Below, piece by piece: positions 4,940-22,964 of a DNA stretch of 64,000 nt. Within the stretch, counting starts at the first letter, position 1, and the number at the start of each line of letters is the position of its first letter. Both the position numbers and the translations under genes were made by a program. Origin of the DNA: Prostheceraeus crozeri. Lineage: Eukaryota > Platyhelminthes > Polycladida > Euryleptidae. The stretch is from assembly GCA_907163375.1 (NCBI GenBank), contig CAJQUW010005307.1, forward strand, positions 1 to 64,000. Direction: 5' to 3'. The notes under the pieces are model-generated. The model did no database searches and was not told the DNA's origin. It saw only the letters and a program-made list of their open reading frames with translations.

Positions 4940-5715
4940 ATGGTAAGTCGCTACTTCCCTCCCTCTCCTCCCTTGAACGTAAACTTAATACAATCTTTTT
5001 TCATTTTCAGGCATCTACTCCATCTGCTGCACTAGTAGGACAAAATGGCGGTCAAACGTTACAAGGTTCGCTACGGTCAGATCATCTACAACTGAGGCCA
5101 GTGGAAGAAACATCCAAGGTACATAATCCTACACCGCTACAGCGTAAATTTAAACAAGCCTTGCGTTATGATGATCATAGCGTAGTACTCCAAACGGGAA
5201 TGCTCCCTTCCACGGATGTCAAGATAATGCACAATCAGTATGGGGACTACATACTGATCCCCGTGAGTCCGTACATTCGCCACCAACTTGATATTATTGA
5301 GGAGTACGTGACATTAAATATGGACATTCGTACTCCTCTTGCTCAAGAGTGGAAGGCGAGAGATGACAAGGATACTCTATATAGAAAGATTTGGGATGGT
5401 AATCACATTTGCCTACCGGTATCACATTGGTGTACTTACTATAAGAAGGATGGAGATCATTCAATACCCATCAGATGTGATGAGCTCGGAGAAGGTACTT
5501 GGGATATCCTTTTCAAAGTGAATGGGCTATATTATGGTCGACACAAGGATAATAAAATAGCCTCTCTCTCCATGCATATGGAATCCATCCTATATATTCC
5601 GAAACCACTCAACGTGGAAGACATAATTGATCAAATCCTTAACAGCAGTGGTACGAAGCGCAAGTCGGAGAAGAATGCTACATCAAAACGCAAATCAAAG
5701 AAGGAGAATTGCTAG
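4940..5715 (+). CDS. spliced left-end gene, 235-aa Polinton protein of unknown function
   Basis: Exon 1 is only the ATG (4940-4942). The intron is 4943-5010 (GTAAGT...TTTTCAG), and exon 2 (5011-5715) opens in phase with GCATCTACT, giving MASTPSAAL... The 235-aa product has a beta-rich middle (QYGDYILIPV, GTWDILFKVNGLYYG) and a lysine-rich tail with KRKSEK/KRKSKK that looks like a nuclear localisation signal. It sits alone behind the TATA promoter. A single-stranded-DNA-binding role is conceivable from the fold-like pattern and nuclear tail, but this is inference; no motif proves it. The short intron and start are supported by the identical architecture of the polymerase gene. Confidence 0.75.
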
Positions 5716-5909
5716 TCCTTTCCTAACTCTACCCTATGACAATTCGCTTATGTGCTTTGAGTATCGTAGACGTGGTCTTATTAGATACATTTTACTTCTT
5801 CGTTGCCATCATATCATTTGTGTATTTTGTCGTGAAAAGCATCGATGTAATTCTTCATTTTGTAATATGTTATAGAACGTTTCCTTAGATGTGTAAATTT
5901 CCGTTTTAG
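5716..5909 (+). other. spacer ending in a splice-acceptor-like site
   Basis: 194 bases between the left-end gene and the exonuclease gene. The end, CCGTTTTAG at 5901-5909, is a pyrimidine-rich AG acceptor in the correct phase (GCT TCT follows) to receive an ATG-only exon. No suitable ATG|GT donor is visible inside the spacer. Confidence 0.45.
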
Positions 5910-6458
5910 GCTTCTATCATCATTTTTATGGATTGTGAGGGTGAACCTGTACAGGAGCTCAGTGCTATTGCTATGAACAATTGGACATATCAGATTGTTA
6001 GTGTCTATCATCAACATGCCAACTGCGATCCCAATGTTGATCAATGGGCGAGAAAACACATTCATGGACTTAATCTGAAATATTTGCAAGACTATGGCTT
6101 TTCTTGTGAAAGTGCTCTTCTTATTGACTTTAAACGATGGTTAGCTGCTTTCAATGTTATACGCATCTTTTGTAATAATCCTGGTAAGGAGAGGAAAGTA
6201 TTTCCCAATCTAATCATTGATGATATTTTGCTCCCGCCTTGGGATAGTAGAGTGAATCAACATTATCATGAAGTCACGAAACGTTTTAAGGATTTGTGTG
6301 TTCCTATTTTGTCTGTTCGTTGTAGTAGCTACGTTCATAACCAATGCTTCTTTCCTCCTTACCTCAACACTGCCAAAGTCCTGTATGGTTATCATTGCTC
6401 GCTGTATGATAGTTATCAGCTGTATCTATTTTATCTCTTTCAAACCATTGATTTATAA
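5910..6458 (+). CDS. DEDDh-type 3'-5' exonuclease-like protein
   Basis: About 183 codons if joined to an ATG exon, or 176 from the internal ATG at 5928. Motif I is D-C-E in IFMDCEGEPVQELSAI, and motif III is H-C-x-L-Y-D near the C-terminus (YHCSLYDSYQLYLFYL). These are the acidic and histidine residues of DnaQ-like DEDDh nucleases; the middle Asp is less obvious. Proofreading, repair or RNA trimming are possible roles. The codons before 5928 (ASIIIF) look like the first beta strand of the fold, which argues that the true start lies upstream by splicing. The downstream gene begins 87 bases later. Exonuclease-like assignment is moderate; biological role unknown. Confidence 0.65.
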   Translation, partial: ASIIIFMDCEGEPVQELSAIAMNNWTYQIVSVYHQHANCDPNVDQWARKHIHGLNLKYLQDYGFSCESALLIDFKRWLAAFNVIRIFCNNPGKERKVFPNLIIDDILLPPWDSRVNQHYHEVTKRFKDLCVPILSVRCSSYVHNQCFFPPYLNTAKVLYGYHCSLYDSYQLYLFYLFQTIDL

Positions 6459-6514
6459 TGCATGCTTGTTACCGTTATTCAATAAATGTTACTATGAGAA
6501 GAGTTGTTGTTTTC

Positions 6515-6523
6515 ATGCAATGG
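6515..6523 (+). promoter_or_regulatory. late-promoter motif candidate (weak copy)
   Basis: ATGCAATGG, a one-base variant of the ATGCAAA motif, lies 31 bases before the ATG at 6546. Confidence 0.3.
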
Positions 6524-6545
6524 ATGGGTTAGATAAAGGGCGATC

Positions 6546-6956
6546 ATGTCTTTCTCAAACGACTGCGGAACATTACGTTTTCATAGGCAAAGTTTAAAAG
6601 GAGCTGTTCAAGATTATGTGATAAATTTTCATAAAGATGAGACCGACATCGAAGCAGTGGTCGATGATGCTAGCACTCTATTTCTAGAGTTAATGAATAC
6701 ATTCTCTGATAGCATTATCATGGCGCGATTAGTTGCGAAAATTAAGTTTAGTCATTTTGGAAAGCAAGAGGTGGAAAGTCGCTCTTTCCATTTTGCTTCT
6801 TACTCAATGGAAGTGGTAGATCACCCCCAAGAATTTTTTAAAAGACATATGATAAAAATTGCTGAACGTCTTAACGCATTTAACCATCATGGTAGCAGTC
6901 TAGTGATTGAAGCGATTTCAGATATTCACATTCAACTTTCCATAAAGAAAAATTGA
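6546..6956 (+). CDS. conserved-looking 136-aa Polinton protein, function unknown
   Basis: The ATG at 6546 opens a 136-aa frame with mixed alpha/beta character: an N-terminal SLKGAVQDYVINFHKD segment, an acidic central helix, and an ordered tail SFHFASYSMEVVDHPQEFF...LNAFNHHGSSLVIEAISDIHIQL. The tail alternates hydrophobic residues as beta strands do. It is not hydrophobic enough to be membrane-bound and no catalytic motif is visible. It ends three bases before the ATG of the RING-like gene, which suggests co-transcription. I do not recognise a named family. Confidence 0.7.
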   Translation: MSFSNDCGTLRFHRQSLKGAVQDYVINFHKDETDIEAVVDDASTLFLELMNTFSDSIIMARLVAKIKFSHFGKQEVESRSFHFASYSMEVVDHPQEFFKRHMIKIAERLNAFNHHGSSLVIEAISDIHIQLSIKKN

Positions 6957-6958
6957 AA

Positions 6959-7282
6959 ATGCAGTGGTACTTGATTGTAGCACAACTGGTTTTCGAGCTA
7001 TGTCTGCTCACTCTCGAAGTATATTCCTTCTGTACATGCGTCTATTATTTAGAAAAGGCTAGCAAATTCATATCTTCAAAAAGACTTGCTATAGACATCA
7101 GTAACGGTGAAACTATGTGTTGCGATGTATGTAAGCGAAAGGATGGAAATGAAAAGCGCATCTTCAAGAGATGTAAGCATGCTTTTTGTCAACGCTGTTT
7201 CATACGTAATTGCATTCAACTTTGCCAATGTAACCACTGTGATATTGCTCATTTCGAGTGTCACTTATGTCGCAATAGTTAG
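6959..7282 (+). CDS. small RING-finger-like protein with N-terminal membrane segment
   Basis: 107 aa from the ATG at 6959. The first 30 residues are strongly hydrophobic (YLIVAQLVFELCLLTLEVYSFCTCVYYL), a likely signal anchor. The C-terminal half has a C-x2-C ... C-x-H-x2-C-x2-C ... C-x2-C pattern (CDVCKRK, CKHAFCQRC, CNHC, CHLC), fitting a RING-type zinc finger. RING proteins commonly act as ubiquitin ligases, so an effect on host proteins at a membrane is possible but inferred. It lies directly behind the 136-aa gene. Exact zinc ligand pairing is uncertain because there are more cysteines than needed. Confidence 0.65.
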   Translation: MQWYLIVAQLVFELCLLTLEVYSFCTCVYYLEKASKFISSKRLAIDISNGETMCCDVCKRKDGNEKRIFKRCKHAFCQRCFIRNCIQLCQCNHCDIAHFECHLCRNS

Positions 7283-7287
7283 TACCT

Positions 7288-7296
7288 ATGCAAATG
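7288..7296 (+). promoter_or_regulatory. late-promoter motif candidate
   Basis: ATGCAAATG sits in the 51-base spacer, 46 bases upstream of the ATG at 7334. One of the recurrent ATGCAAA motifs. Confidence 0.5.
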
Positions 7297-7333
7297 TGGT
7301 AAAGATAGGTTTTAGCAAAGACTAATACGGAAA

Positions 7334-7690
7334 ATGGCGAAACGTAAAATGACGAAACGTAAAAGTCAAAAGTTTTCTTCAGCCATTCAAGCTCTCCGAC
7401 GAATGAAAGCAAATCAGCGATACAATGCTATACGACATGCTAACGATAAATTCATTTGTGAAATTATTTCTCATGTGAGGAAGTTGAGGACGAAGAAATT
7501 AGCGCCAAAACAACGAAAGTTACTTAAGCGATATGCTACGAAATTGCGTTTCATCTCCAATCCTAAAGTCACCCTTCAAAGAAAGAGGAAAACTCTAACA
7601 CAAAAGGGCGGTTTCCTTTCAGCAATACTTCCAATGATAGCTCCTGCCGTGGGCAACCTATTGGGTAATATCTTTGGCTCTAAGCGTTAA
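7334..7690 (+). CDS. basic core-like protein with C-terminal hydrophobic segment
   Basis: 118 aa. Residues 1-92 are very rich in Lys/Arg (MAKRKMTKRKSQK..., LRTKKLAPKQRKLLKRY), as in DNA-condensing virion core proteins. Residues 93-118 switch to a glycine/hydrophobic segment, GGFLSAILPMIAPAVGNLLG, before a basic end. The Gly-Gly just before the hydrophobic part could be a cleavage site for the element's adenain-type protease, which prefers such sites. This layout recalls the small core and membrane-active proteins of adenovirus-like particles. A packaged DNA-binding protein is the most likely role; homology was not established. Confidence 0.6.
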   Translation: MAKRKMTKRKSQKFSSAIQALRRMKANQRYNAIRHANDKFICEIISHVRKLRTKKLAPKQRKLLKRYATKLRFISNPKVTLQRKRKTLTQKGGFLSAILPMIAPAVGNLLGNIFGSKR

Positions 7691-7692
7691 TT

Positions 7693-7701
7693 ATGCAAAT
7701 G
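7693..7701 (+). promoter_or_regulatory. late-promoter motif candidate
   Basis: ATGCAAATG in a 31-base spacer, 29 bases before the ATPase ATG at 7722; a CTTAAAG word follows it at 7707. Confidence 0.55.
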
Positions 7702-7721
7702 TTGAATCTTAAAGTAATAAA

Positions 7722-8339
7722 ATGGATTTCAGACTTCAATGTGATAAAGTTCTGACTGTATCAGGTCCATCTCATGCAGGTAAAACTGTTTTCACGCTGA
7801 ATTTATTGGATAAAAGAAGGGAGTTGTTTAAGGAACCTATCAATCGAGTGATTTGGTGTTATGGTATTTATCAACCGTCGCTGTTTCAGGAATTGCAAAG
7901 TCGCAACTTTATTCGACATGAAGGAATTATTCCAGTGGATAAACTTCAGTCTAATGATGTTGTTGTATTGGATGATTTATTAAAAGAAAGTAAGAATTCC
8001 AAAGATGTTACAGATATGTTCACTCGCGCAGCACACCATAAAAGGTGCTTTATCATCTATATCACACAAAATTTGTTTCCTGATGGAAAAGAAGCTCGTA
8101 CACGAAACCTGAATACACACTATTATGCTATTTTCAAGAATCCGCGAGATAAAAGTCAATTTGAAATTTTAGCGCGACAAGTTGCACCCAGAGGATCAAA
8201 AGCCTTAATTGAAATTTTTCAAGCAGCTACTGAAAAACCATACGGTTACTTATTCATTGACTTTACGCAAGAGTGTCCGGAAGAATTTAGATTTCGAAGT
8301 GATATTTTGAAAACTCCTATGATTATCTACAAACTATGA
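7722..8339 (+). CDS. genome-packaging ATPase (FtsK/HerA, A32-like)
   Basis: 205 aa, the usual size for Polinton packaging ATPases. Walker A is GPSHAGKT (residues 15-22) and Walker B is VVVLDD (80-85). A following sensor-like stretch, RCFIIYITQNLF, carries the Gln-Asn typical of this family. The enzyme would drive DNA into preformed capsids. The stop overlaps the start of the next gene by four bases (ATGA), so the two are probably translated from one transcript. No defects are seen. Confidence 0.9.
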   Translation: MDFRLQCDKVLTVSGPSHAGKTVFTLNLLDKRRELFKEPINRVIWCYGIYQPSLFQELQSRNFIRHEGIIPVDKLQSNDVVVLDDLLKESKNSKDVTDMFTRAAHHKRCFIIYITQNLFPDGKEARTRNLNTHYYAIFKNPRDKSQFEILARQVAPRGSKALIEIFQAATEKPYGYLFIDFTQECPEEFRFRSDILKTPMIIYKL

Positions 8340-9028
8340 GTTCTTATTCTCGCATGATTGTTATTCCTCAGGATGAATATGTACAATTGACTGCCATGCA
8401 GCAAGTAAAGCAACCTCTTGCAAATCAAATGTATAGGAAAGAAATAGATTATCAGCAAAATGTTCACATCAAAGATCCACATCGTGCTGTATTATTACAA
8501 TCGGAAACTGTTGAGCAATTGAAAAACTTGAAGAATAAGATGCGTGACTCTGTATCGACTGCTACACCTTTAGCATCTCGCGCACATGCCATATCTCTTT
8601 TCAACAGTATTGAACCCCATCTCAATGTAAATGATAGAGGAGAAATCATTACAGATGAAAATAAAGTGATTGATGCTTCACGTTATGAAGACTTGATTCA
8701 GTATGCGACACGTAGAAAGCGCCGTCAGGGCTATGTTCCACCTGGTTGGTCATACTTTCTTAAACTATTGAAAAAGCATAATGTACCAAAATTTGCTTTA
8801 AATAATGAGACATTGAAAGAACTTGATTCAACAGTGGCTACTACTCCAATGCCTCAGGCGATGAAAATGCCAAGAAATTGGTTTAAGACGTCACCTGCTA
8901 CATCCCCTCCCACACTCACTAAGCAAACAAGAGGAAGAACTCGACGTAGATCTACATCGCCACTAAAACTGGTAAAAGGAAAACGTAAAACAGCTCCTCC
9001 TAGGAAATACATGTTCTCAGACTATTAA
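8336..9028 (+). CDS. conserved Polinton virion-associated protein, 230 aa, unknown function
   Basis: Starts at an ATG overlapping the ATPase stop. The N-terminus (RMIVIPQDEYVQLTAM) is followed by a helical region, a block with acidic loop and GWSYFLKLLKKHNVPKFALNNETLKEL (about residues 137-165), and a basic, Ser/Pro-rich tail (RGRTRRRSTSPLKLVKGKRK). Proteins of this layout follow the ATPase in other animal Polintons, as I recall. The basic tail suggests contact with nucleic acid or the particle interior. Function is not known. Confidence 0.75.
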   Translation: MSSYSRMIVIPQDEYVQLTAMQQVKQPLANQMYRKEIDYQQNVHIKDPHRAVLLQSETVEQLKNLKNKMRDSVSTATPLASRAHAISLFNSIEPHLNVNDRGEIITDENKVIDASRYEDLIQYATRRKRRQGYVPPGWSYFLKLLKKHNVPKFALNNETLKELDSTVATTPMPQAMKMPRNWFKTSPATSPPTLTKQTRGRTRRRSTSPLKLVKGKRKTAPPRKYMFSDY

Positions 9029-9029
9029 T

Positions 9030-9245
9030 ATGAAGCAGATGTGTTGCTTGCCATGTAATGAGCCGCCAGAGGTGAATGTCGTTGTCACTTGCACTTGCTG
9101 CGCCAGCTCTCATAATGAAACCCCTAAGCAATGTGAACACGATCGCAAAACCGCTAAAGCTAAATGCTGCAGTTGTTGTAAATGTAGAAAGGCAAGAAAA
9201 CAAAAAGATGAGAAGGAGGAAAAAGAGTCAGCCGTCATCGACTGA
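9030..9245 (+). CDS. small cysteine-rich protein, 71 aa
   Basis: Starts two bases after the previous stop and contains 12 cysteines within about 50 residues (CC, CTCC, CCSCCKC), then a charged tail. Clustered Cys pairs suggest zinc binding or disulphide packing. The last 38 bases overlap the start of the integrase gene in another frame. Keeping an open frame so rich in Cys with almost no spacer from the upstream gene argues that it is real. Role unknown. Confidence 0.55.
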   Translation: MKQMCCLPCNEPPEVNVVVTCTCCASSHNETPKQCEHDRKTAKAKCCSCCKCRKARKQKDEKEEKESAVID

Positions 9246-10295
9246 ACGTTTGAAGTCAATCTATTATGATGTAAAACATCCGGCAGGATTTGCATCTATC
9301 AAGAAATTATCAAAAGCGAGTGGTCTTCCACAATCACAAGTGAAACGATGGTTAAAGGGTCAGGCTACCTATACACTCCAAAAACAAGCGAAAAAGAAGT
9401 ACCGCACCCGCCATTATATTGTTCATGACATCGATGAACAGTGGCAAGCAGATTTGTGTGATGTTGCCTCCATTTCAAAACATAACTCGGGCAATAATTT
9501 TATTTTAACCGTCATTGATATTTTCTCGCGTTATGCGTGGGCTCAACCTTTAAAAACTAAAGAAGGGAAAGGAGTAGCAAAAGCATTCCAAACAATTTTT
9601 CGAGAAGGTCGCATTCCAAAAAGAATTCAGAGTGATCAAGGAAAAGAGTTTGAAAATCAGCATGTGACAAGATTATTTGAGAGGCATGACATTGAGTTGT
9701 TTAGTGTAAAGAGCGCTTATAAAGCTGCACTCGTTGAACGTTTAAATCGCACATTAAAAAATCGCTTGTGGCGACATTTTACTGCCAACTTGACACAAAA
9801 TTGGATAAAGGTTCTACAAGATACACTCCATGACTACAATCACTCTATCCATCGTTCTATTGGACTCAGACCAGTAGATGTAAATGCTGACAATGTAGAT
9901 AAAGTGCGCGAATCATTCCAACGTAAACGCACTCATGTGAAAAGTGATGTGAAAATTGGCGATAAAGTTCGTATCTCAAAAGTGAAAGTGTTTTTGCTAA
10001 AGGGTACCTCCCGAATTGGACAGAGGAGGTATTTACAGTATCAAGGATTAATCAAAAAGACTCTCCGACCACCTACAAGTTGAAAGATTACGATAATGAA
10101 GAAATTGAGGGTAGCTTTTACCGCGATGAGATTGAGGTAGTCACTGAAAGTGAAACATATTTGGTAGAGAAAATCATTCGATGTAAAAAACGGCAAGGTG
10201 AAGAATGGTGTCTTGTTAAATGGACTGGTTATCCTTCAAGTATGAACTCTTGGATGCGTCGTGCCGACATCTTTCATCTAAGTGATCGACAGTGA
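9208..10295 (+). CDS. INT: integrase with C-terminal chromodomain, broken by a one-base loss
   Basis: From the ATG at 9208 the frame gives an N-terminal helical region, then a retroviral-type DDE core: Asp in WQADLCD, Asp in QSDQGKEF, and Glu in AALVERLNRTLKNR. It would cut and join the element's ends and explains the 6-bp target duplication. The frame fails at a T-run at 9991-9995. Downstream coding continues in the -1 frame to 10295, where a chromodomain is recognisable (YLVEKII...EWCLVKWTGYP). Chromodomains guide integration by binding histone tails. The uninterrupted frame stops at 10083. A sequence or assembly error in the T-run, a real deletion, or recoding would all fit. Confidence 0.9.
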
Positions 10296-10298
10296 TTC

Positions 10299-10309
10299 AT
10301 GCAAAGTTG
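10299..10309 (+). promoter_or_regulatory. late-promoter motif candidate
   Basis: ATGCAAAGTTG in the 41-base spacer, 38 bases before the ATG at 10337; followed by CTAAC at 10313. Confidence 0.55.
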
Positions 10310-10336
10310 TAACTAACAATGTTTAGGGTTTGAGCT

Positions 10337-10804
10337 ATGAATCCAACTGCCTCATTTTATTCACGACCCTCCTATGTAAGTGGCGGAGGACAAATTTACA
10401 TCGGTGCTCGCCGCCAACGTGGAGGTAGCATACTTGGTGCACTGAAATCTGTTGTAGCACCTCTCATATCCAATGTCGGTAGATCTTTAAAACGAAATGT
10501 TTTAAGTAATGCCGTTGGCTTTGCTGGTGATGTTGCTAGTGATCTTTCCAGAGGTAGAAGTTTTAAGAGCAGTTTGTTGAATCGTGGGAAGGAACGCGGT
10601 TTAAAAACATTGAAGCAGACCATTGCTGGTGTTACTCAAGGAAAGAAATCACCTAAACGAATGAAAAAGGAAGGAGGAAACATCGCGGAGCTGGTAAGGT
10701 GCGATCTTCAGTCAAAAGGCATTCACGCAAACGTCGTAGAGGCTCTAATCATTCATCAGGCGCTAAACGACGACGCTGCTATAACTTCTAATCATGGAGT
10801 GTAA
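10337..10804 (+). CDS. protein VI-like minor virion protein, probable frame break
   Basis: 155 codons as read. Residues about 30-75 (RRQRGGSILGALKSVVAPLISNVGRSL...) form a Gly-Gly-preceded amphipathic segment like the membrane-lytic helix of adenovirus protein VI and its Polinton counterparts, followed by FAGDVASDLSRGRSFKSSLLNRG. The Gly-Gly would suit cleavage by the element's protease. After the A-run at 10664-10668 the -1 frame gives a strongly basic tail that stops at 10791, two bases before the capsid ATG. The 0 frame gives an uncharacteristic acidic tail overlapping the capsid gene. One base is therefore probably missing in the A-run. Confidence 0.65.
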   Translation: MNPTASFYSRPSYVSGGGQIYIGARRQRGGSILGALKSVVAPLISNVGRSLKRNVLSNAVGFAGDVASDLSRGRSFKSSLLNRGKERGLKTLKQTIAGVTQGKKSPKRMKKEGGNIAELVRCDLQSKGIHANVVEALIIHQALNDDAAITSNHGV

Positions 10805-12071
10805 AACTTCCGGTTTTTGTTTGTTCGATCAACAAGCCATACAGACAGATATTCTTAGTTCAAGTATTGTAGATTATCATCCTCGAACAGCTGAGAATGC
10901 TGGCCCCATTGAATTTGTTATTCCTGGTGGTAGTGATGACTACATAGATTTGAGTTATGCGATGCTTGATTTGAGGTTTAGAATTCAGCAAGCCGATGGA
11001 ACTGCTATTGACGATGCACATAAAGTTGGACTGAACAATTTACCATTGACTACATTACTTCGTGATGTTTCTCTAACGATTGGAGAGCAGCAGGTGGAAG
11101 GTGGTCAAAGCGATTATCCCTATAAATCATATTTCAATCATGTATCACAGTTTCATCCAGCAGCACAAAAAAGTCATATGGAAGCCATGGGATGGTACAG
11201 AGATGAAGCAGGAAAATTTGATGTTGAAACAAACAGTGGCTTTGTAAAGCGATCTGCTATGATTAAAGATAGTAGAGTATGTCAGCTATATGGTCCGCTG
11301 AATTTAGACTTCTTTAGACAGTCAAAGTTTTTACTGTGTAACACCAGCATGCGACTCAAGCTGACATTGAATAAGCCTGAATTTGCGCTGAATGCATTTG
11401 CTAAAGTTGACAATTTTAGAATTCATGTGGAAGATATTGCACTTTACATTCGTCGAGTAGTACCGAATCCAAGTGTCATTAGAGGGCATGCTGAAGGCCT
11501 TAACCGCCAAAATGCCATTTACCCCGTTCAGCATACAAAGCTTCTCACCTTTACAATTCCGAAAGATCAAAAGAGTTTCATGAAAGATGGCCTCTTTCCA
11601 TCGGAAGCACCGAAGCTCCTCATGGTGGCAATGGTTGAAAATGATGCATTTAATGGTAATATAAAGAAGAATCCTTTCAATTTTAAACACAATCAGTTAA
11701 GTGAAATTGCTTTACGTGTAAATGGTGTGAGTCATCCTGGTCCACCCTACAAACCAGATTTTGCTTCGGATCAATTTATGCGCAGTTATGTTGATTTTAT
11801 GGATGTCTTTGGCTTTTACAATACGGATGACACCAACGGACTGACTATGAAAGAGTTTAAGAGTGGATATACTATTTATGCATTTGATTTGACTGCTGAC
11901 AGCGATATTAGTGCACCCTATCGTCAAGCGAACGTGCCTCATAATATTCGTTTGGATTTGACGTTCAAAAGAACACTACCTGAGACGATCAATGTATTAA
12001 TTTATGCAGTCTTCGATTCAAATATTGAAATTACAAAGTATCGTGACGTGATTCTTCAGTATAATCGTTAA
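10794..12071 (+). CDS. MCP: major capsid protein (hexon-like, double jelly-roll)
   Basis: 425 aa with no hydrophobic leader, predicted mainly beta. Recognisable Polinton capsid stretches are the N-terminal IEFVIPGGSDDYIDL, the VSLTIGEQQVEGGQSDYPYKSYF region, LYGPLNLDFFRQSKFLL, NPFNFKHNQL, and the C-terminal LDLTFKRTLPETINVLIYAVFDSNIEI. The pattern matches the nematode F54H12.2-like group found in animal Polintons. Position (between the protein VI-like gene and the protease) and length support the capsid call; the fold itself is inferred. Its stop overlaps the protease start by one base (TAATG). No breaks are seen. Confidence 0.82.
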   Translation: MECKTSGFCLFDQQAIQTDILSSSIVDYHPRTAENAGPIEFVIPGGSDDYIDLSYAMLDLRFRIQQADGTAIDDAHKVGLNNLPLTTLLRDVSLTIGEQQVEGGQSDYPYKSYFNHVSQFHPAAQKSHMEAMGWYRDEAGKFDVETNSGFVKRSAMIKDSRVCQLYGPLNLDFFRQSKFLLCNTSMRLKLTLNKPEFALNAFAKVDNFRIHVEDIALYIRRVVPNPSVIRGHAEGLNRQNAIYPVQHTKLLTFTIPKDQKSFMKDGLFPSEAPKLLMVAMVENDAFNGNIKKNPFNFKHNQLSEIALRVNGVSHPGPPYKPDFASDQFMRSYVDFMDVFGFYNTDDTNGLTMKEFKSGYTIYAFDLTADSDISAPYRQANVPHNIRLDLTFKRTLPETINVLIYAVFDSNIEITKYRDVILQYNR

Positions 12072-12532
12072 TGAGTTGGTTGACTGCTGACGATATTAAG
12101 ACTAAAGTGCAGCGTAATGCAGACGAAGCGACGTTGAAAGCTTTCGATAATGTCTATTCACTCGATACCTTACCACCTGCAGTAAATCACTATCCCATCT
12201 TTATTGTGCTAAACACTCATTCACAGAATTTAGGCGGTGAGCATTGGAAAGCGATCTTTATTGGAGAAGACCGATGTGGTGAACTATTTGACTCTCTTGC
12301 TCAACCTCCAAATATACCAACACAGCAGTGGTTGAGAAAACATACGCGTCAATATCAGCGAAATGAACGCATACTACAACATCCACTTTCATCAACGTGT
12401 GGTGCTTTTGTACTGTACTTCATCTTAAGACGTTTACATGTATCTCGATTTGCATCTGTTATTCAAAACTTTTCATGTAATCCATCCTCTAATGAAAAAA
12501 TGATTTGTAAGTTCTATCATGATTTGAAATAA
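12071..12532 (+). CDS. PRO: adenain-type maturation protease (cysteine, clan CE)
   Basis: 153 aa. The catalytic set is in order: His58 in GGEHWKAIF, Asp74 in ELFDSL, Gln103 in ILQHPLSSTCG, and Cys110 in STCGAFVLYF. The enzyme would trim virion proteins such as those carrying Gly-Gly sites (7334-7690 and 10337-10804). Its start overlaps the capsid stop, so it probably shares the capsid transcript. The frame is intact. It ends only 26 bases before the convergent TBP-like gene; AATAAA and its complement lie in that gap. Confidence 0.9.
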   Translation: MSWLTADDIKTKVQRNADEATLKAFDNVYSLDTLPPAVNHYPIFIVLNTHSQNLGGEHWKAIFIGEDRCGELFDSLAQPPNIPTQQWLRKHTRQYQRNERILQHPLSSTCGAFVLYFILRRLHVSRFASVIQNFSCNPSSNEKMICKFYHDLK

Positions 12533-12558
12533 AAACATCATGTTGGAAAAATTGTTTT
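12533..12558. terminator. shared polyadenylation region of two convergent genes
   Basis: An AATAAA overlaps the protease stop on the plus strand, and an AATAAA-type word is present on the minus strand (TTTTTTATTTT near 12554). Twenty-six bases separate the two stop codons. Confidence 0.5.
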
Positions 12559-13104
12559 TTATTTTACAATCCGCTGGGTATGTACATACTCAATGAGATA
12601 GTCTAGGATCATATTTGCTTGTACATGAGATTTTAGTCCAGTAATGATCACTTTACTATTATGAAAGATTGCCACATGCACAGGTAACCAACAACTAATG
12701 AGAGCTGCAGGAAAAAGTTCGGGTTCATAACACAAACTGTAACTGCTGGTACGAATCTTCAAAAATGATAGACTGTCGCTCAATTGAGTAGAGATCACCA
12801 TATTGTCCACAGTCAGATTCGACATCACACACCTCTCCCTCTTCCATATCCGACGTAGTAGTCTTTGTAGCTCTAAGCGCATTGACTGCGCCGATGAATG
12901 AGAAAGGGCGCCGAGAATCTGTACAGTCCCATTTGGGAAGAGTTGAAGATTCCGTGAATTGTTCATCTTCACCACTAACATTTGAGGACGGCCCGGGTAA
13001 TACTTGCTGTTTGGAAGCTGTTGGTGTAATGTTGTGAGATCGATTTTGGTGTAGAGTCTGAAGCGACGGAGAATGTTGACGATGGTGTAGCGATGGCGCT
13101 TCAT
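12559..13104 (-). CDS. TATA-binding-protein-like protein (TBP core, two repeats)
   Basis: 181 aa from the ATG at 13104, the size of a bare TBP core. Repeat 1 is about residues 6-84 and repeat 2 about 98-175. Both align with the two TBP repeats with hardly a gap. Repeat 1 has VNIL, KIDLTTL, NSKYYPGR and LQLFPNG. Repeat 2 has DNMV, YEPELFP, IFHNSKV and ITGLKS. The two minor-groove asparagines (N10, N101) and three of the four DNA-kinking phenylalanines (F56, F131, F147) are kept; the fourth is replaced by Pro40. The gene follows a PC4-like gene with an ATGA-type junction. It would act as an initiation factor for the element. A host-derived copy is possible but it is highly diverged. Confidence 0.85.
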   Translation of the reverse strand: MKRHRYTIVNILRRFRLYTKIDLTTLHQQLPNSKYYPGRPQMLVVKMNNSRNLQLFPNGTVQILGALSHSSAQSMRLELQRLLRRIWKRERCVMSNLTVDNMVISTQLSDSLSFLKIRTSSYSLCYEPELFPAALISCWLPVHVAIFHNSKVIITGLKSHVQANMILDYLIEYVHTQRIVK

Positions 13105-13426
13105 GATGAAAGAATGAGTAAATTGAGCGATGTACCTTCCTTTTATACTTTTCCCAACTACCTTGATGAAATGTGAAGTTAGTATGAAGTTGGGAATGAT
13201 AGAGTTGAATTCGCCGATTGTTGACGCGCAGCCAGATGCGATTTCCAATACGTGAATGTCTTTTCATATAGAAGAATTTCAAGTCCTTCATGATATGATG
13301 TAGAGATTGAAAATGACGATAAGATAAAGCAAACTCTCTTCTCACTTTTCCAGTTGAATCTTTGAAATAGACGTTTCGATCATGATCCGTTTCAATACGT
13401 TGTAGGGAATCTAATTTCCAACTCAT
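13096..13426 (-). CDS. PC4-like small protein, copy 2 (frame runs on to 12725)
   Basis: From the ATG at 13426, about 110 residues match copy 1 upstream: WKLDSLQRIETDHDRNVYFKD, a Gly/Arg loop then FALSYRHFQSLHHIMKDL, and a C-terminal WEKYKRKVHRSI. The beta strands, basic loop and helix resemble the single-stranded-DNA-binding domain of the transcription cofactor PC4/p15 (compare RGITL..QF..L in copy 1 with PC4's KGISL..QW..L). Past residue 110 the frame stays open to 12725, but that part only shadows the TBP-like gene. The true stop is probably the TGA overlapping the TBP-like ATG, reached if one base is missing near 13110. Family call is moderate. Confidence 0.6.
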
Positions 13427-13448
13427 GATGTGTGGTAGTCATGTCTGA

Positions 13449-13805
13449 TTAAGATTTGCATAGTAGGGCGATGAACTCACGACGAATAAATGTCATGATG
13501 GAGCGATGTATATATCTTCTATACTTCTCCCAATTGTATTTGCGAAATGAGAAACAGTTTGCGGAATGAGAATGGTAGATTTGAATTTCATTTCTGTAAT
13601 GTTGAAGCCAAACTTGATCACCCAAGGAGATGAATCTTAATGTTTCAAAATATTCCAAATCCCTCATGATATCATTGAGGTTGACAAATTGTCGCCATGT
13701 TAATGTAATTCCTCTTGATGTATGACCATGAGAATTTTTGAAATGTACGTTTCCATCACGATCAACTCTGATATATTGTAGAGAGTCCAAAATCCAAGTC
13801 TTCAT
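13449..13805 (-). CDS. PC4-like small protein, copy 1
   Basis: 118 aa from the ATG at 13805. WILDSLQYIRVDRDGNVHFKN is followed by RGITLTWRQFVNLNDIMRDLEYF and a second half with LGDQVWLQHYRNEIQIYHS and NWEKYRRYIHRSIMTFIRR. The first 55 residues fit the PC4/p15 DNA-binding fold (strand with basic residues, RGITLTWRQF, helix). It is a tandem paralogue of the 13426 gene. It shares a 35-base divergent spacer with the penton-like gene on the plus strand. Expected role: binding melted DNA at transcription start or during replication; inferred. Confidence 0.6.
   Translation of the reverse strand: MKTWILDSLQYIRVDRDGNVHFKNSHGHTSRGITLTWRQFVNLNDIMRDLEYFETLRFISLGDQVWLQHYRNEIQIYHSHSANCFSFRKYNWEKYRRYIHRSIMTFIRREFIALLCKS
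13454..13461 (-). promoter_or_regulatory. late-promoter motif candidate (minus strand)
   Basis: On the minus strand ATGCAAAT begins 35 bases upstream of the ATG at 13426, overlapping the end of the upstream paralogue. A TTAATC word follows. This would drive the PC4-like copy 2 and TBP-like pair. Confidence 0.55.
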
Positions 13806-13811
13806 GATGTT

Positions 13812-13822
13812 ATGCAAAGTTG
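13812..13822 (+). promoter_or_regulatory. late-promoter motif candidate in a divergent spacer
   Basis: ATGCAAAGTTG, 29 bases before the ATG at 13841. The spacer (13806-13840) separates two divergent genes and also contains ATATAAAA directly before the plus-strand ATG. Confidence 0.55.
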
Positions 13823-13840
13823 CAGATTAGCAATATAAAA

Positions 13841-15240
13841 ATGTCGTTTTATCATATTTTGCTTAGCAATGCGGCTACAAAGAGATTTACTAGTAATCGA
13901 GCTGCACTCTTTTCTACTCCCATTGATCATGCACAACAGCTAAATGGAAATTGGGAAGTGGGTGTTTCACTCAACTTGTTTATAGCAACTGTGTCTATAC
14001 TTTTGATCATGAGGTGATGACTATTAATATGAGGCGTACAGCTGCTTATCAATGTGAAAAGGGGTGCCGAGTATACATTCCACAGTGGCCAAAGAAAGAT
14101 CTCTTATCATGTAAAAAGTTTATATATGATTTCTTGAATAAAGCGTGTAAACATATTGTCCAATTTACTCCGCACAATGATGATTATAATTATGTACATC
14201 ATGTAGTTGAGAAAGATTGGATTGTTGGTTTAAGTCCAAGTTTAAGAAATGATTTAGGCTACCTCGCTAGCGCCTTAACAAGCTATGATAATTTTAACGT
14301 TAATTACCACATAAGTGGTCATAAACAGTTAATATATCGAGAGGAAGCTTATTATGTAGATCTTATTCCAAGAAATGAGAAGACGTTGGTGAAGAAGATT
14401 GTGATTAAGCCAAGAAAGACAAACATGACTCCTGAAACATTATTGAAGAAATTTAATTATCTCCTTCGAGTTGATGGCAAACAAGTGGCAACATTGACTT
14501 ATATTAAATCATCTAATCATATTGCAATAAGCAAATTAAATGATGATGATCTAGTATTAGTTTGTTCAAAAGATTTTCATCAGTTCTTACGACATCGTTC
14601 TGCAGCTGTTCATGGAAAATCTGATATGCAACATTTACCATGTGAAAGGTCAAATCAATTTGATACAGAATGGACCGTATCTTTATACAGAAAGTGTGTA
14701 GAGCCTTTAGGTGGTATCTTACATGAAACAAGAGTGTTGATGCCTCGCATTATTACTTCGGTTAAATTGGTTGTAGATTATTTAAGTGAAGTGATTAATG
14801 ACCAACATATTTCATTTTCTGAAAAAGAAGGTACTTTGTCTCTCACTATAAGTGGAAAAGGTATTGAACTAATTATGGATAAAACTCTAATGGACATTTT
14901 GGGTTTTGATCAAAATATCTTTAAAAGTGGTACTGTAACCAAAGCTAGCGCAGACATGTCACTATCGCGTCGTATTAACTATTTTCAGATATATTCCAAT
15001 ATTGGTGAAGATGTACGTGTGGGAGATGTTGAAGCTCCATTGCTAGCAATGATACCATACCAGCCAAAGAGCTGCAGTATTTTATCTGAGCATACTTTCA
15101 AGAAAGTGCATTATACAAAGCTGAAATCAAACTACATCCCACAAATTGATATTGCCATTTATGACGATGCTGGTGCGTTGATTCCTTTTCATAAAGATGC
15201 TGTGACAAGTATCACACTCCATTTCCGAATGAAGAGTTAA
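13841..15240 (+). CDS. penton-like minor capsid protein, copy 1, broken by a one-base loss
   Basis: The ATG at 13841 opens the typical start FYHILLSNAA...NGNWEVG. Near the T-run at 13965-13967 coding passes to the -1 frame, which stays open to 15240; total about 465 residues. The C-terminal signature is IYSNIGEDVRVGDVEAPLLAMIP followed by a strand-rich end, DIAIYDDAGALIPFHKDAVTSITLHF. These features belong to the Polinton protein regarded as the penton or minor capsid protein at particle vertices. The adjacent gene at 15250 is a paralogue. As read, the gene is split into a 5' piece ending at 14017 and the main part. Confidence 0.78.
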
Positions 15241-15248
15241 TGCAAACG
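15240..15248 (+). promoter_or_regulatory. late-promoter motif candidate
   Basis: ATGCAAACG overlaps the stop of the first penton-like gene and lies 40 bases before the preferred ATG at 15280. GCTAAT follows it. Confidence 0.45.
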
Positions 15249-15249
15249 T

Positions 15250-16800
15250 ATGCTAATATATTTTTCCAATGTGAATAATATGGAAAGTGAAAATAAGGAC
15301 TCGTTTCTAATCTACTTGCCCAGTAATGCTTCTATGAATAAATTTCCCAAAAATAAACCATCAGACTATCGAGTAGAATTAAATCGGCCACTGCATTTAG
15401 AAGGTGAATGGGAGGTTGGCGTTTCTAGTATTTGCTATGATAGCAATATTCAGAATGTGAATGATTTGGAAGAAATGATATTGACTCCTCGCACCCATGA
15501 TGGAATAACGATGAATAATTCATTTCAGTTCCCATACAATTTAACATCAGATGGAAAGTGGAACTATGAATGGATTCAGATAAAATCAGATTCTTATGAG
15601 CCATTTGGGAATGAGAAAATTATTAAGGCATTCAACAGTGGTAATACTTCCATCATGAAGAATAAAAATCAGAAAGCTTATGAGTTTACTATCTATCATT
15701 GGAGTGGGAGACAGTTCCTCCGCTTTCATTCTTTTACTAAAGGTCTTACGCTGAGGTTGGATAGTGAATTCTATCCACATCTTGGTTTTGGTCATGGACT
15801 ACATCTAACGTCAATTGCTACTGCAAATGTTAAAAAAGTTTATTCAAATCGAATCAACAAATTTCATTATAGATTTAAAATATTTGATGAAGATGTTGTA
15901 GAATGCGAAGAACGCATCATTTTGAAAAAGCGTGGTGTTCAACCTTTATCACTTATTGAGTTAGTAAAACGATGGAATGAGACTGTGGGTAAGAAGTATG
16001 GAGAAAAAATTATGGCGGACAAAAATAAGTTGGTTATTCAGAAATATAATGACAAACTTACAGTTTATTTCTCTCCAACCTTGCGTCATTTTGTAAGACA
16101 TTATACACCTATTATTGGAAGCGGTGTGGTGTATGCTTCTCATGAATATCACACTAAAGCTGATTCAGTTAATGATGAATGGTGGGTGGACATCTATGGC
16201 GATCGCATCAAGAAAATTTACCAGTCTTATGAAGAATCTAAAGTTGCTATCAATATAATGCCGCGTCTATATCATACAGTTGAAAGCTTCATTCATGTAG
16301 TAAATCCTTATATACAACAGAAGTTGAAGCATGTGATGAAAAGTAAATATGATGTAAAGACACACCACATTTCGTTTTCAATTGAAAATCAACGCGTTGT
16401 TCTGAGACTGGGTGATGACATTCAATGTCAATTGAGTAAAAATTTGAAAAAACTCTTTGGTTTTTCAATGCTACAAACAGTGTTTGCTGCTGCGCATACG
16501 ATTGGTATAGAAACACCAATGACACTTGATAAACATGAACAGCACCTTTACATTCAAAGTGATTTGATTCTACCTATTTCTGTTGGTGAGAAAAAAGAAT
16601 ACATTTTACGCGATTTCATTCATGATAAAGACGCTTCATATGGAATAGTCGAGAAGATGTTTGAATCTATTTTCTATCATCCCGTCATCAAACAAACTAT
16701 ACCCTCTATTGCTATCAAAATTACCAATGGTTTACAAGAGTGCATCCACGTGAAAGATACTAAATCCCTCATAACGTTAGTGTTTCGGAAAACAAAGTGA
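15250..16800 (+). CDS. penton-like minor capsid protein, copy 2
   Basis: 516 aa from the first ATG. The ATG at 15280 (MESENKDSFLIYLPSN) is the better start because family conservation begins there and a promoter motif overlaps the first. DSFLIYLPSNASMNKFPKNKPSDYRVEL and LEGEWEVGVSSI form the N-terminal capsid domain. The end repeats the strand pattern of copy 1 (LYIQSDLILPISVGEKKEYILRDF ... SIAIKITNGLQECIHVKDTKSLITLVF). The protein is longer than copy 1 and open throughout. Two such paralogues could form distinct vertex proteins, with one perhaps carrying receptor contacts; that is inference. Confidence 0.78.
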   Translation: MLIYFSNVNNMESENKDSFLIYLPSNASMNKFPKNKPSDYRVELNRPLHLEGEWEVGVSSICYDSNIQNVNDLEEMILTPRTHDGITMNNSFQFPYNLTSDGKWNYEWIQIKSDSYEPFGNEKIIKAFNSGNTSIMKNKNQKAYEFTIYHWSGRQFLRFHSFTKGLTLRLDSEFYPHLGFGHGLHLTSIATANVKKVYSNRINKFHYRFKIFDEDVVECEERIILKKRGVQPLSLIELVKRWNETVGKKYGEKIMADKNKLVIQKYNDKLTVYFSPTLRHFVRHYTPIIGSGVVYASHEYHTKADSVNDEWWVDIYGDRIKKIYQSYEESKVAINIMPRLYHTVESFIHVVNPYIQQKLKHVMKSKYDVKTHHISFSIENQRVVLRLGDDIQCQLSKNLKKLFGFSMLQTVFAAAHTIGIETPMTLDKHEQHLYIQSDLILPISVGEKKEYILRDFIHDKDASYGIVEKMFESIFYHPVIKQTIPSIAIKITNGLQECIHVKDTKSLITLVFRKTK

Positions 16801-17105
16801 AGTCTTTATACAACATTTATTGAAATATGTACATGACTGTGAAGCAATAGACTTTATACAACATCCACTGAAAATATATACATGAGCGCACTTCAATAAA
16901 CATTGCTATATACAAAAAGTCTTTTTACTTCGTGAAGGGTGGAAATATACAGGGATAGGAAAAATGTCTTTCAGTGGAAAAGTCATCACATGGGGAATGT
17001 ACAGATGTGGACACATATTCACAAGGAAAAAACAATCTCATGCGATACATAAAACAACAATGTTTATCTACAGAAATCAACATCAAAATACTAAGTTAAG
17101 GATGA
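16801..17105. terminator. convergent 3' region with poly(A) signal and a direct repeat
   Basis: Between the penton-like gene (plus) and the polymerase (minus). A block of about 34 bases (TCTTTATACAACAT...GTACATGA) is repeated at 16801-16834 and 16849-16884. AATAAA lies at 16895-16900. No gene is seen; a 60-codon plus ORF beyond it shadows the polymerase end. Confidence 0.5.
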
Positions 17106-20100
17106 TTATGCTAAGACGTCTCCTGAATGTGGTAGTGTGGGTTTAATTCTTTTGGGTGGTGGTATGCCTGTATCAGGATGTCCATGTGGAAGAGATATGT
17201 TGTGTTCTAACCAGCACCTCTTATCCTCCCATGCTGAAAGCGCCCGTTTCCTAAAAGTATGAGTTTTGATCTCATGCGACTTAGATTTTAAGATTGTCAT
17301 ATTGACAAACGTTATATTTTTATTTCTATAGGCTCCCTTGAAATTTTTATGTTTCATGTTAGAGACCAATGATCTTGATATGCCTTTAGCGCGCTTAATG
17401 CTATCATCACTATCCTTTAATTTCATAGAATACATTTTAGGGCGGAGGAGAATCATTTCAGCTATCTCCTTCCCTGCTGTCTCATCCTTAAAGCAGCCAA
17501 GTTTTGCCTTATTTTTGATGGAGTATAGTGGATGATCAGCAGGATAATTTGATGTATCAAAATATCTTTCTAAAGATTTTCCTACTTCATTAAAATTTAA
17601 ATCTTTTTGAGTGGTAATACCTAAAAAGAAACTATCTGTGTCACCACCCAACAAACGAACCTCTTTTACGAGAGGACACGGTTTTAGTATTTTATAGAAG
17701 AGTTGATACATTTCAAGCTTGGAGTAATCTAGAACAGCTTGACCAATATAGATGGGTTTGCACAACTCAACTTCAGATTTTATCATTTTAATACCTACAA
17801 GATCCTCATCGATTATGTCTCTATCGATGAATAGAGGTGATGAGGTCAATTTGTGATACTTTTGATCATCATTAACTAGTTTGTAGTTTACGCGCTTTCT
17901 AACATCCTCCATCGTCTTACCAAATAGACTGTTGTTCTTATATTTATAAAAATCTTTTTCAAAATTATTTTGGGCTAGTGCACGTTTCTGGCTGTTACTA
18001 TCTATGTAGGGTTTGAGGAAGGCTTTCTGTCTAAATTTAATAATGCGGTGAACTCTTTTTAAAATCATGCCCATTTCTAAATAAAATTTTAAGATGCTAA
18101 AGTGGACTAGATAGTTTTCTTTATCATATTGAGTGAGCAAAAGTTTGCGGCAAGGCTTATACTTGGGTTGTCCACATGATTCTAAATCTTTATGAAATTG
18201 TTTCATAAAGTCGGAAAACATATCTTTACTCACTTCACCTGATTCGGGTGTGAGTGGAAAATCTACGGTTTTATGTTTAATATTATTTGGATAGATTAGA
18301 TCTATCTCAAAATAATATCCCCAATCACCTTCATCTGGAATTGCTAGTATGTTGGAAGGGTTGGAGAAATGTTGAATTTCACTATCATCTAACCAGCTAA
18401 ACTCAGAGTGAGGTAGCGGTTTGGATAATGAACTACCATACAAATTATTTTGGTCATAATACTTAAGATGAGTCTGATCATCGCCTACTATTTTTGATTT
18501 TAACCTATGTTTATTTACAAATGTGAGACCACCGCGAATTCCTCGCTCAAATAAATTATACATCTCTGGATCTTGTAAGAGATGAATGGTCTCACCAGTC
18601 ATTTTAAAAGCAGACTTAAATGACATGGCTGGTAGACTGACAAAGTGGACGGGATCTAACTTATCTTCTTCTAATGCCACTCGTCGAAACTCCTGAAATA
18701 CATCAGCCAGCAAAAATACATCTAACTTAAGATAGGCAATCATATATTCGCCAAATGTATGGAAGTCAAATTTTATCCATGCATCTTGTGCATGTTCATA
18801 ATCTTCGGTCTTACATTCTGCGCCGATCAAATCATTTTTAAATTTATCTATGGGCGGAAGAGAAGTCTCGCCGAGTTTACTAATCGCATCAAAATATGCA
18901 TATGGAAAGACTCCTTTCCGTGTGATGACTTCATCGGTTAGATTTGGATATTGTTTCTTAAGATTTTGTGTTAGTGGAAGAGACTTTAGATTTTGTACGA
19001 GAGAGGCCAGTGATGCAGTCATAAATTGGTAGGAATCTAAAAATTTTATATCGAAATAGACCGTCTTATTTTCTTTAGTTTTATCGACAGGCACTTTTGC
19101 TGTCATGGCCATAAACTTCTCTCTCGTTTGTGCTATTACATCAAGCTTCCACTCTTTCATTTGACCTAAACCTCCTTTTATTATCATATGGCTATCGTAG
19201 CCCTTGAAATTATGGAAAATGACGGGTAATGTACGCCGTTTCATCCTAAGTGAAAAATTGCATTTTGAACATAGTGCGTTTCTAAATTTACCAGTGATGT
19301 GATCATGGTCGCGCACTTTCTTAATCTTATCATCATCAAATGTTTTCCTACATTTGGGGCAAACGTTGCAACTATCAAATTTTACTTGATCATCTGCTGT
19401 CATATGCAATGATCTGCGATAGAGTTCACCATCATACTTTTGCTGAAATTTTACAGCCTGTTTGAGGAATTGTAGGAATTGGTAAATACAATCCTCACCT
19501 TGCCAGACGTGCATTTTATTTTTTCTATTTTGGAAATGGTCATGCCATACTTCATAGCAGGAAATGGCTGCTGGTCGATGGATGTTATCATCGATATAAC
19601 ATTCGATGTCAGCATAGATGACACGAAGAGGACTTAGTTCATCGCCATTCTCTCTATATGAAAACTCCTTATCTTTGGGCATGCGTTCCATTTGCAGTTT
19701 ACCTCGCTTACACCACTCATAATGAGTTTCAAATTTGTTTTTACTCCTAAAGTTCCGAATGCATCTGTCACAGTAATAAATCTCTGATGAGGTAGAATTT
19801 CTTAAGTGGTGGTATAAGCGAGAAATTTTGGGAATACCGCAGTAGTGCCATTCCTCACTATCATCCTGTCTTACTAATAAAAGGTTGACAACGTGGTCAT
19901 AACAACTCGAACGCGAGTTGTAGCGCACACCCTTCAATCTCTTTTCCCAAACATGGAGAACTATTTTAATGTTGTTCAATTTTTCAAATTTTTCTATATC
20001 TTTAATTTTCATATCGTCACTATTACAGTCATCGAAGTTTAATTCATTCTCCCACTGCCTATAGCTATATGTGCGATTTCGATTCGCATTGATATCATTA

Positions 20101-20996
20101 TAGTGGAGAATGGAGAGGACAGCATATTTAAAACATTGCGATTCGCAATCGACATTAATGACTGCTGTTTTGTTTTTTAAAATTTTTGGAAGTTTAAAGG
20201 AGCCTCGACCACTATGATTTCCTAATAAACTGATTTCAAATAAGGCGGACTCAATGCCGTCAAAAATGAGACCGCTATCGCGCTCGTTAAATTTATCAAT
20301 ATTTAATTTTAATCCTTGGATGTGAAAATTTATCCAAGACTCATAGTCTACAACCTCGGTTGCAGGAGAGGAGGGTATGTGAAACTCCAACCTCTCTATT
20401 ATTTGTCCAGTATGGTGGTCGATTTTTACATATTTTATTTTAAGATAGATGAGCGCCTTCATCCTAAAATTGTCTAAATTGTTGAAGAGCGCTTCTATCA
20501 ATGATGAATTTTGATGAAACCATTCCTCAAAGTTAGCAATGGTTTCTGAGGAGTCCATCTGGTAGTTCCTCACTAAATTATTTATGGACACTTCAGTGAG
20601 TCGGATAGAGGAGGTACCGTTGGTGTAGGTATCGTTCGTGTGTGTATGTTGAAGTCTGTGCGAAGATAGTTCAAAACGTGTCTCGAAAGACTGAGCGCAC
20701 AAGTCGCAAGAAAAGGAGACGACGTTAACAGAATTGACGTGCCCACAGTCAGCACATTCCCACTCGTTGCCATGTCGCGACAGTTCTGAGCTGGAACTCA
20801 CATCACCTGAAAGAGAAATCATTCTATCATCTCTGTTCAAGCCTCAGTGTAGTGTTACAACCTACCTTGACTCAATAACTCTAAACTTTCCTCGAGAAGG
20901 GAGGGCGTTGGTGATGAAGTTGATGCCTGAAATTGAGGAAGATGCTATTAGTCACACGTTTGAGGGAGATGAGAGAGGAAATCTTTAACTTACCAT
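17106..20996 (-). CDS. POLB: protein-primed DNA polymerase B, spliced (three exons)
   Basis: Exon 1 is the ATG alone (20996-20994). Intron 1 is 20993-20927, exon 2 is 20926-20866, intron 2 is 20865-20807, and exon 3 is 20806-17106, giving 1254 aa. Splice sites are GTAAGT/TTTCAG and GTAGGT/TTTCAG. N-terminal zinc fingers (WECADCG, CDLCAQSF...H) precede a region with CFKYAVLSIL and HYCGIPKISRL resembling an OTU-like domain. Exo I is YADIECY (about 418), then a CPKC...VRDHDHITGKF zinc knuckle, Exo II NFKGYD, and Exo III YLKLDVFLL. Polymerase motifs are DQNNLYGSSL, KYKNNSLFG and GDTDSFF. All catalytic residues are present. It replicates the element from a protein primer at the termini. Exon 1 plus intron matches the left-end gene. 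Confidence 0.94.
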
Positions 20997-22668: not shown

Positions 22669-22727
22669 GATTGAAATGAAATGAAATGAGAGGCAGTGGT
22701 TTATATACCCCTCTAACGCGACGCAAC

Positions 22728-22872: not shown

Positions 22873-22964
22873 TGATGGGGTGGTGAAGGCGGGCAAAGAT
22901 CTGCAATGAAAATGATATGTATTAGAATAGGATATACTATCTTATTTACTTTTCACTTACCAAG

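Follow-up and report, generated by a model that had tools for sequence, protein, structure and literature searches.

Among the closest described counterparts of the protein considered here is ORF24 of KSHV, a late mimic of the TATA-binding protein (TBP) with which recognition of the TATT late motif is associated. In the portions of the source available, Table 1 pairs ORF24 residues with TBP positions 69, 71, 99, 101, 114, 116, 122 and 124, and likewise with positions 159, 161, 189, 190, 191, 205, 207, 213 and 215; changes are recorded at L114 (to S), V122 (to N), T124 (to N) and L205 (to S), and the authors propose that the polar face may give specificity (PMC12529657). A TBP cluster is also reported for 59% of mirusvirus genomes and 0% of Nucleocytoviricota by that paper's own clustering, as given in the part of the source available (PMC10132985). 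For Polinton, Maverick and adintovirus elements, the available portions of the open-licence literature searched yielded no TBP, an earlier description being possible; a literature match to Cymbomonas concerns elements of putative mirusvirus origin. The papers searched likewise gave no account of how Polinton capsid genes are timed in the host nucleus.

Here we describe a Polinton with a gene for a predicted TBP of its own, the DNA-reading face of which is altered in sequence throughout its family. The element lies in the window, the whole stretch of 64,000 nucleotides that was analysed, which comes from a genome of 2.05 Gb in 14,165 contigs.

The Polinton and its TBP-like gene

The element is inserted inside a Gypsy reverse-transcriptase frame, and 1600 of the 1612 aligned bases of its terminal inverted repeats are identical. 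Its principal features are as follows.

3026..27094, unstranded: whole Polinton, 24,069 bp, with terminal inverted repeats of about 1617 bp
3020..3025 (left) and 27095-27100 (right), unstranded: 6-bp target-site duplication, identical bases on both sides
7722..8339, plus strand: packaging-ATPase-like ORF (weak AAA/Pox_A32 matches, below cut-off)
9076..10083, plus strand: rve integrase (PF00665, E 1.7e-10)
10794..12071, plus strand: conserved 425-aa ORF, capsid protein candidate (263 homologues at E<=1e-5)
12071..12532, plus strand: protease-like ORF (weak Pfam Peptidase_C48 match, E 0.0053, below cut-off)
12559..13104, minus strand: TBP-like gene, 181 aa and stop (Pfam, AlphaFold2, PDB fold, homologues)
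12725..13426, minus strand: par1 ORF, an N-terminal domain of about 107 aa (13426-13105) and a C-terminal extension that runs over the TBP gene in a different frame
13449..13805, minus strand: par2, tandem paralogue of par1, 118 aa
17106..20840, minus strand: DNA polymerase B-type ORF, 1244 aa (polymerase motifs by eye)

The capsid labels of the 425-aa ORF and of the capsid-type ORFs (13951, 15250) are putative. The best 120 of the 263 homologues of the 425-aa ORF were listed; P0064, labelled as a Pseudomonadota MAG, is 86% identical to it and is probably a mis-binned eukaryotic contig. Above the Pfam cut-off, the polymerase-type ORF matches Endonuclease_7 only. Tandem copies of a unit of about 295 nt are found in both terminal repeats (3628-4673 and 25020-26501), and the capsid-type ORF 13951-15240 is broken near its 5' end in the window copy, seven other compared copies differing there. 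Elsewhere in the window, mirror-image ORF pairs (31078-31935 and 42973-43933) suggest a further element of about 12-13 kb with long inverted repeats.

The TBP-like ORF reads from a start codon at 13104 to a stop at 12559-12561. Its product matches PF00352 (TBP) with an E-value of 6.1e-20 and 71.3 bits against a cut-off of 22.9, in two stretches that correspond to both repeats. A sequence search of the PDB with the 181-aa protein returned 35 distinct sequences at E<=1, all named as TBP, TFIID or TBP fusions apart from one 'ECU04_1440 protein', with archaeal and Encephalitozoon sequences at the top; when the family profile was used, the best E-value improved to 1.2e-24. The AlphaFold2 model, built from 45 family sequences, has a mean pLDDT of 94.8 and a pTM of 0.85. 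Foldseek comparison of this predicted model with the PDB (E<=0.001) gave 45 matches: TBP chains, alone or in fusions, fill ranks 1 to 44 (TM to query 0.67-0.82), and a weak match to an unrelated protein comes last. Among viral predicted structures, the best 50 of 628 matches include giant-virus TBPs and, lower down, herpesvirus proteins; no Polinton protein is named among these 50, many of which are nameless. Identity to five cellular TBPs is about 21-27%. Chance resemblance is excluded because profile E-value, fold and 61 homologues (E<=0.001) concur, and we conclude from sequence and model that the minus-strand ORF 13104-12559 encodes a TBP-family protein with a predicted TBP saddle. The initial annotation had recognised a two-repeat, TBP-like product of 181 aa, and structure prediction upholds it. 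Its further proposal, that the TBP is self-encoded and embedded in the element, agrees with the gene order: protease-like ORF, TBP gene, par1/par2, and then capsid-type ORFs 13951 and 15250.

The gene is abundant in the window's genome. The best 150 of 11,897 first-look candidates, the window copy included, are all full length, stop-free and 99-100% identical; these were ranked by similarity to the query, so that their number is a lower bound and their quality a biased sample. The presence of at least 150 copies at such protein identity points to a recent burst of the Polinton. An independent search with a distant relative, P0051, gave 143 rows without a stop and seven with one stop among 150, and from it 20 copies were fetched: seven close to the window copy (94-96%), 12 in a second subfamily (82-86%) and one, L082, with an internal stop. 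Between the subfamilies (the 12 against the window copy and its seven close relatives, 96 pairs), mean dN is 0.089 and mean dS 0.360, a ratio of 0.247. The window copy against the seven close ones gives dN/dS values of 0.38-1.75, on two to six synonymous changes each; we count these against our main reading, and they are to be expected if many of the changes arose after insertion. A pN/pS of 0.057 from 68 of the 150 near copies was set aside in favour of the subfamily comparison, these copies having been chosen by TBP score.

Public databases hold 61 homologous proteins at E<=0.001 among 94 candidates, 44 of which were aligned with the window protein (alignment A1, 45 rows). In a tree of these 45 rows and six cellular TBP-family proteins, a branch with 100/100 support separates the two groups. 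The attempt to name the donor of the gene from this tree was dropped, since it has too few cellular rows and its branches are too long. Chance capture of a host TBP or TRF fragment, functionless in the element, has nothing to commend it beyond the general frequency of gene capture. It would have to be squared with a frame that stays open in the best 150 copies (a similarity-ranked, biased sample) and in the 143 rows of the independent query, with the subfamily dN/dS and with the fully supported split from the cellular rows, and we regard it as scarcely credible. The TBP-like gene is a maintained gene of the Polinton, since subfamily dN/dS is about 0.25 and 61 public homologues exist.

The TBP gene shares part of its length with par1. 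The frame that overlaps it is the C-terminal part of the longer minus-strand ORF 12725-13426, and this extension stays open as far as aa 108 in 17 of the 19 copies that were compared; L070 has a stop at aa 31 and L081 at aa 47. Between the subfamilies the extension shows a pN of 0.08-0.11 and a pS of 0.14-0.19; changes that are silent in TBP are usually not so in the extension, and these values therefore hint that the extension may be coding. Over the overlap, 68 of the 150 near-identical copies, picked by TBP score, give the opposite signal, a pN/pS of 0.015 for TBP and 5.4 for the extension. Codon usage in the two frames was not informative, leaning against the TBP frame, and is counted against the main reading. 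Taken together, the overlap is possibly double coding. The initial annotation had named conservation of the overlapping frame in place of the TBP frame as evidence against a TBP gene; the overlapping frame is mostly open too (17/19) and does not displace the TBP frame, which is kept in the 61 homologues and in both subfamilies (dN/dS about 0.25).

Over their shared domain par1 and par2 are 43% identical. A search with them returned five proteins, the window's own among them; neither had a Pfam match above the cut-off or a PDB match below E 0.19, and the idea that they are PC4-like is without support from either source. We also asked whether the public TBP homologues lie on Polinton contigs. 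Comparison of source-sequence lengths between the 61 TBP homologues and the best 120 of the 263 capsid-candidate homologues gave one shared length where 0.5 is expected by chance, and a link on this basis was rejected; a length match between TBP and par1/par2 homologues (1771) has a chance expectation of 0.05. Searches for the DNA around relatives gave no match in public viral contigs (with P0001, A1, the 425-aa ORF and A2), nor in public genome contigs (with A2 and A1) or phages.

Residues kept and altered across the family

Residues were counted in the window protein and all 61 homologues, 62 sequences in yeast numbering, and the 45-row alignment A1 shows a like picture. The yeast and human TBP cores used for alignment are identical in their letters to PDB chains. 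Against these cores the window protein keeps N69, N159, F116, F190 and F207, has proline in place of F99 and is identical in the stretch YEPELFP, as the initial annotation had read from the sequence when it noted both groove asparagines and three of the four phenylalanines. The pattern extends to the family: N69 is present in 50 of 50 sequences (12 rows lack the position) and N159 in 62 of 62, as are F116 and F207, with F190 in 61 of 62 (Cys in P0040). F99 is replaced by proline in 58 of 59 (Gln in P0029; three rows lack the position), so that three of four intercalating phenylalanines are kept, unlike in a canonical TATA-binding TBP. V161 and P191 (both 62/62), T215 (61/62) and R98 (59/59) are kept as well.

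Other positions are changed. V122 and V203 are replaced throughout, by Q and H respectively (62/62 each), L114 by Q in 58 of 62 and T124 by L in 56 of 62, while position L205 is occupied by A (46), T (14) or S (2). The hydrophobic groove floor of a canonical TATA-binding TBP (V71, L114, V122, V203, L205) is not retained in the family. The TFIIB-binding stirrup, on the other hand, is conserved (E186 in 61 of 62, E188 in 62 of 62 and L189 in 55 of 62), and the TFIIA residue K138 is Lys in six and Glu in 42 of 62.

We assign V203 to the floor and K138 to TFIIA contact. We also take E186 and E188 to be the TFIIB-binding glutamates, and use them here because residue 184 is Ser in the aligned yeast sequence. 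Positions 203 and 205 are, we presume, the sites of laboratory TBP mutants that read TGTAAA. The available text of PMC12529657 gives E184 and E188 as TFIIB contacts, and that of PMC10005294 confirms three second-repeat changes and TGTAAA, the positions not being named there.

To judge by its sequence, the TBP-like protein is no canonical TATA binder, given the family-wide changes in its groove floor; its DNA face is altered throughout the family, and the TFIIB-binding stirrup is conserved. A competitor or decoy, which would keep its TFIIB surface, loosen its grip on DNA and draw host TFIIB or Pol II off host promoters, would agree with a stirrup that is kept while F99 and K138 are mostly replaced. 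Such a protein would not need both groove asparagines, three phenylalanines, V161, P191 and T215, all of them invariant or nearly so, and a conserved non-TATA spacer element is present in the Polinton; we therefore hold this explanation to be improbable. Less probable still is a role in replication, packaging or integration, for instance in binding and bending the terminal repeats: a DNA-bending fold would be at home in an element with a polymerase-type ORF, but the strong conservation of the TFIIB stirrup would go unexplained.

Two kinds of putative promoter

Three sites within the Polinton combine a TATA box with a downstream TCATTC.

13112..13147, minus strand: probable core promoter for TBP, made up of TATAAAAG and, some 32 nt downstream and shortly ahead of the ATG, an initiator-like TCATTC
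4828..4862, plus strand: TATA and TCATTC ahead of the first gene, itself apparently spliced
21103..21141, plus strand: TATA and TCATTC upstream of ORF 21222

The pattern TATAWA-N(21..27)-TCATTC, written after two of its three sites had been seen, occurs three times in the 64-kb window where 0.18 is expected, and all three occurrences are inside the Polinton. A looser version with TCAKTY gives nine against 1.18 expected, six inside 3026-27094 and three outside, one of the six lying within the 425-aa coding frame. Over the TBP promoter, the 68 copies compared (out of the 150 near ones) are identical; of the 20 fetched copies, 17 match the looser pattern, the exceptions being L073, L075 and L084. 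The first gene (4940-5010) shows apparent splicing right after its ATG (GTAAGT ... CAG); the apparent intron would mean that host splicing is used.

The likely TBP promoter may also have left a trace in protein sequences. By eye, nine public homologues whose frame is open upstream (P0003, P0008, P0012, P0015, P0018, P0026, P0030, P0031 and P0032) have Ile-Lys exactly ten residues before the His that precedes the start Met, a spacing consistent with the translation of a TATAAA-CAY core promoter. The same inspection found the pattern absent in P0016, P0029 and the long N-termini of the distant group P0049-P0062. Some of this upstream conservation in the near relatives may be due to par1 coding.

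A second sequence, ATGCAAA, stands in several of the spacers.

7288..7294, plus strand: 46 nt before ORF 7334; retained by L090, altered in L089
7693..7699, plus strand: 29 nt upstream of the ATPase-like ORF 7722
10299..10305, plus strand: 38 nt upstream of ORF 10337
13455..13461, minus strand: 36 nt upstream of par1; kept in L089 and L090, present in 17 of 20 loci
13812..13818, plus strand: between par2 and capsid-type ORF 13951; 7 nt from the par2 start (other strand)
15240..15246, plus strand: 10 nt upstream of ORF 15250 and 40 nt from its second in-frame Met

The word was first noticed by eye in upstream sequences and tested afterwards. Among the 7-mers in the 60-nt upstream stretches of 17 element genes it ranks first, with five genes in sense and six when both strands are counted; in 200 shuffles the best 7-mer averages 2.8 and never reaches five (sense, 60 nt). 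Other settings are weaker, with P 0.08 for 8-mers (sense, 60 nt), 0.01 for 7-mers (150 nt) and 0.235 for 6-mers (sense, 150 nt). Placement is what sets the word apart: of eight ATGCAAA sites in 4900-16800, five fall in sense within 60 nt upstream of a gene (binomial 4e-6), whereas TATGCAAA in the whole window is not over-represented (five found against 4.46 expected), which we count against our main reading. Counted against it too is that 11 of the 17 genes, among them those of the 425-aa capsid candidate, the protease and the integrase, lack ATGCAAA within 60 nt on either strand. Spacer sites are kept at six of six positions in L090 and at five of six in L089, both second-subfamily copies, in which their 20-nt flanks are 27/39 to 39/40 identical; one of two intragenic sites is kept there and the other lost. 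The site between par2 and 13951 is present in 14 of the 17 orientable copies among the 20 fetched.

Two promoter classes are thus suggested for the element. A host factor may nevertheless be the reader of the second: ATGCAAAT matches what we take to be the octamer site of host POU factors, a point that we count against the spacer element as a target of the viral TBP. A POU/octamer factor would then read the spacers, and the viral TBP would serve ordinary TATA promoters, such as the TATA and initiator promoters that the element has, or promoters of Pol III type through Brf1. It is less easily reconciled with spacing and with the protein. Four of the six sites lie 29-46 nt before a listed ORF start, and a fifth (13812..13818) lies 29 nt before an upstream ATG at 13841, distances typical of a core promoter; throughout the family, moreover, the residues of the floor by which A/T is normally read are altered. 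On balance we think this explanation unlikely, if still one to be taken seriously.

A possible promoter switch and its counterparts

We favour, as the probable role of the viral TBP, a promoter-specificity switch that would bring host TFIIB and Pol II to genes of the element; its DNA target and its timing, 'late' by analogy, are inferred, as is the control over late transcription that the initial annotation had proposed. Host TBP and Pol II would first transcribe the genes with TATA and TCATTC (the first gene, the TBP gene and the 21222 ORF). The viral TBP would then bind and bend a different core element before the structural genes and recruit host TFIIB and Pol II via the retained stirrup, TFIIA probably not taking part, and would thereby direct transcription to the Polinton's own genes. 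As its target we put the ATGCAAA spacer element first among the candidates, a tentative assignment that we hold with less confidence than the switch itself. It is tempting to speculate further that the TBP of this Polinton lineage, altered in its specificity, recognises a core-promoter word of its own (TATGCAAA-like) in a two-stage programme, TATA/initiator genes preceding TBP-switched structural genes with host TFIIB and Pol II only; we consider this full scheme possible, if rather doubtful.

A self-encoded TBP with a changed reading face would offer a concrete and testable answer to the question of capsid-gene timing, and the Polinton protein may be a natural altered-specificity TBP. The TBPs of far larger viruses are joined here by one from an element of 24 kb.

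Many NCLDVs encode their own RNA polymerase. Their TBPs and those of mirusviruses reside in genomes far larger than the 24-kb Polinton, which in its 6-bp target duplication, inverted repeats, rve integrase and capsid-type ORFs is like Polinton/Maverick and adintovirus elements. With the TBPs of giant viruses (NCLDV), ASFV pB263R included, and of mirusviruses, the Polinton protein shares a virus-encoded TBP fold, as far as the available parts of the sources describe it (PMC5825884, PMC10132985). Like cellular TBPs, eukaryotic and archaeal, it has the two-repeat saddle, the groove asparagines and the YEPELFP stirrup; unlike them, it combines about 21-27% identity with one replaced phenylalanine, a polar floor, a changed TFIIA residue and a separate position in the tree (six cellular rows).

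The herpesvirus comparison bears on the proposed switch. KSHV ORF24 and its beta- and gammaherpesvirus relatives, in the portions of the sources available, are likewise TBP-fold proteins of nuclear DNA viruses, and there the late TBP mimic is linked to a non-TATA late motif (PMC12529657, PMC7498053). ORF24, as described in these portions, is large, has all four phenylalanines and an extra DNA-binding C-terminal domain, and binds Pol II itself without the TFIIB glutamates, whereas the Polinton protein is a bare 181-aa core in which F99 is replaced and the TFIIB stirrup intact; the Pol II-binding N-terminal and DNA-binding C-terminal domains of the ORF24 type are absent from this core. At the shared positions 114, 122 and 205, nevertheless, the DNA face of the Polinton TBP is more polar, as is that of ORF24 in the available text. 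If true, the two-stage programme would parallel the herpesvirus late switch in minimal form, apparently having arisen separately.
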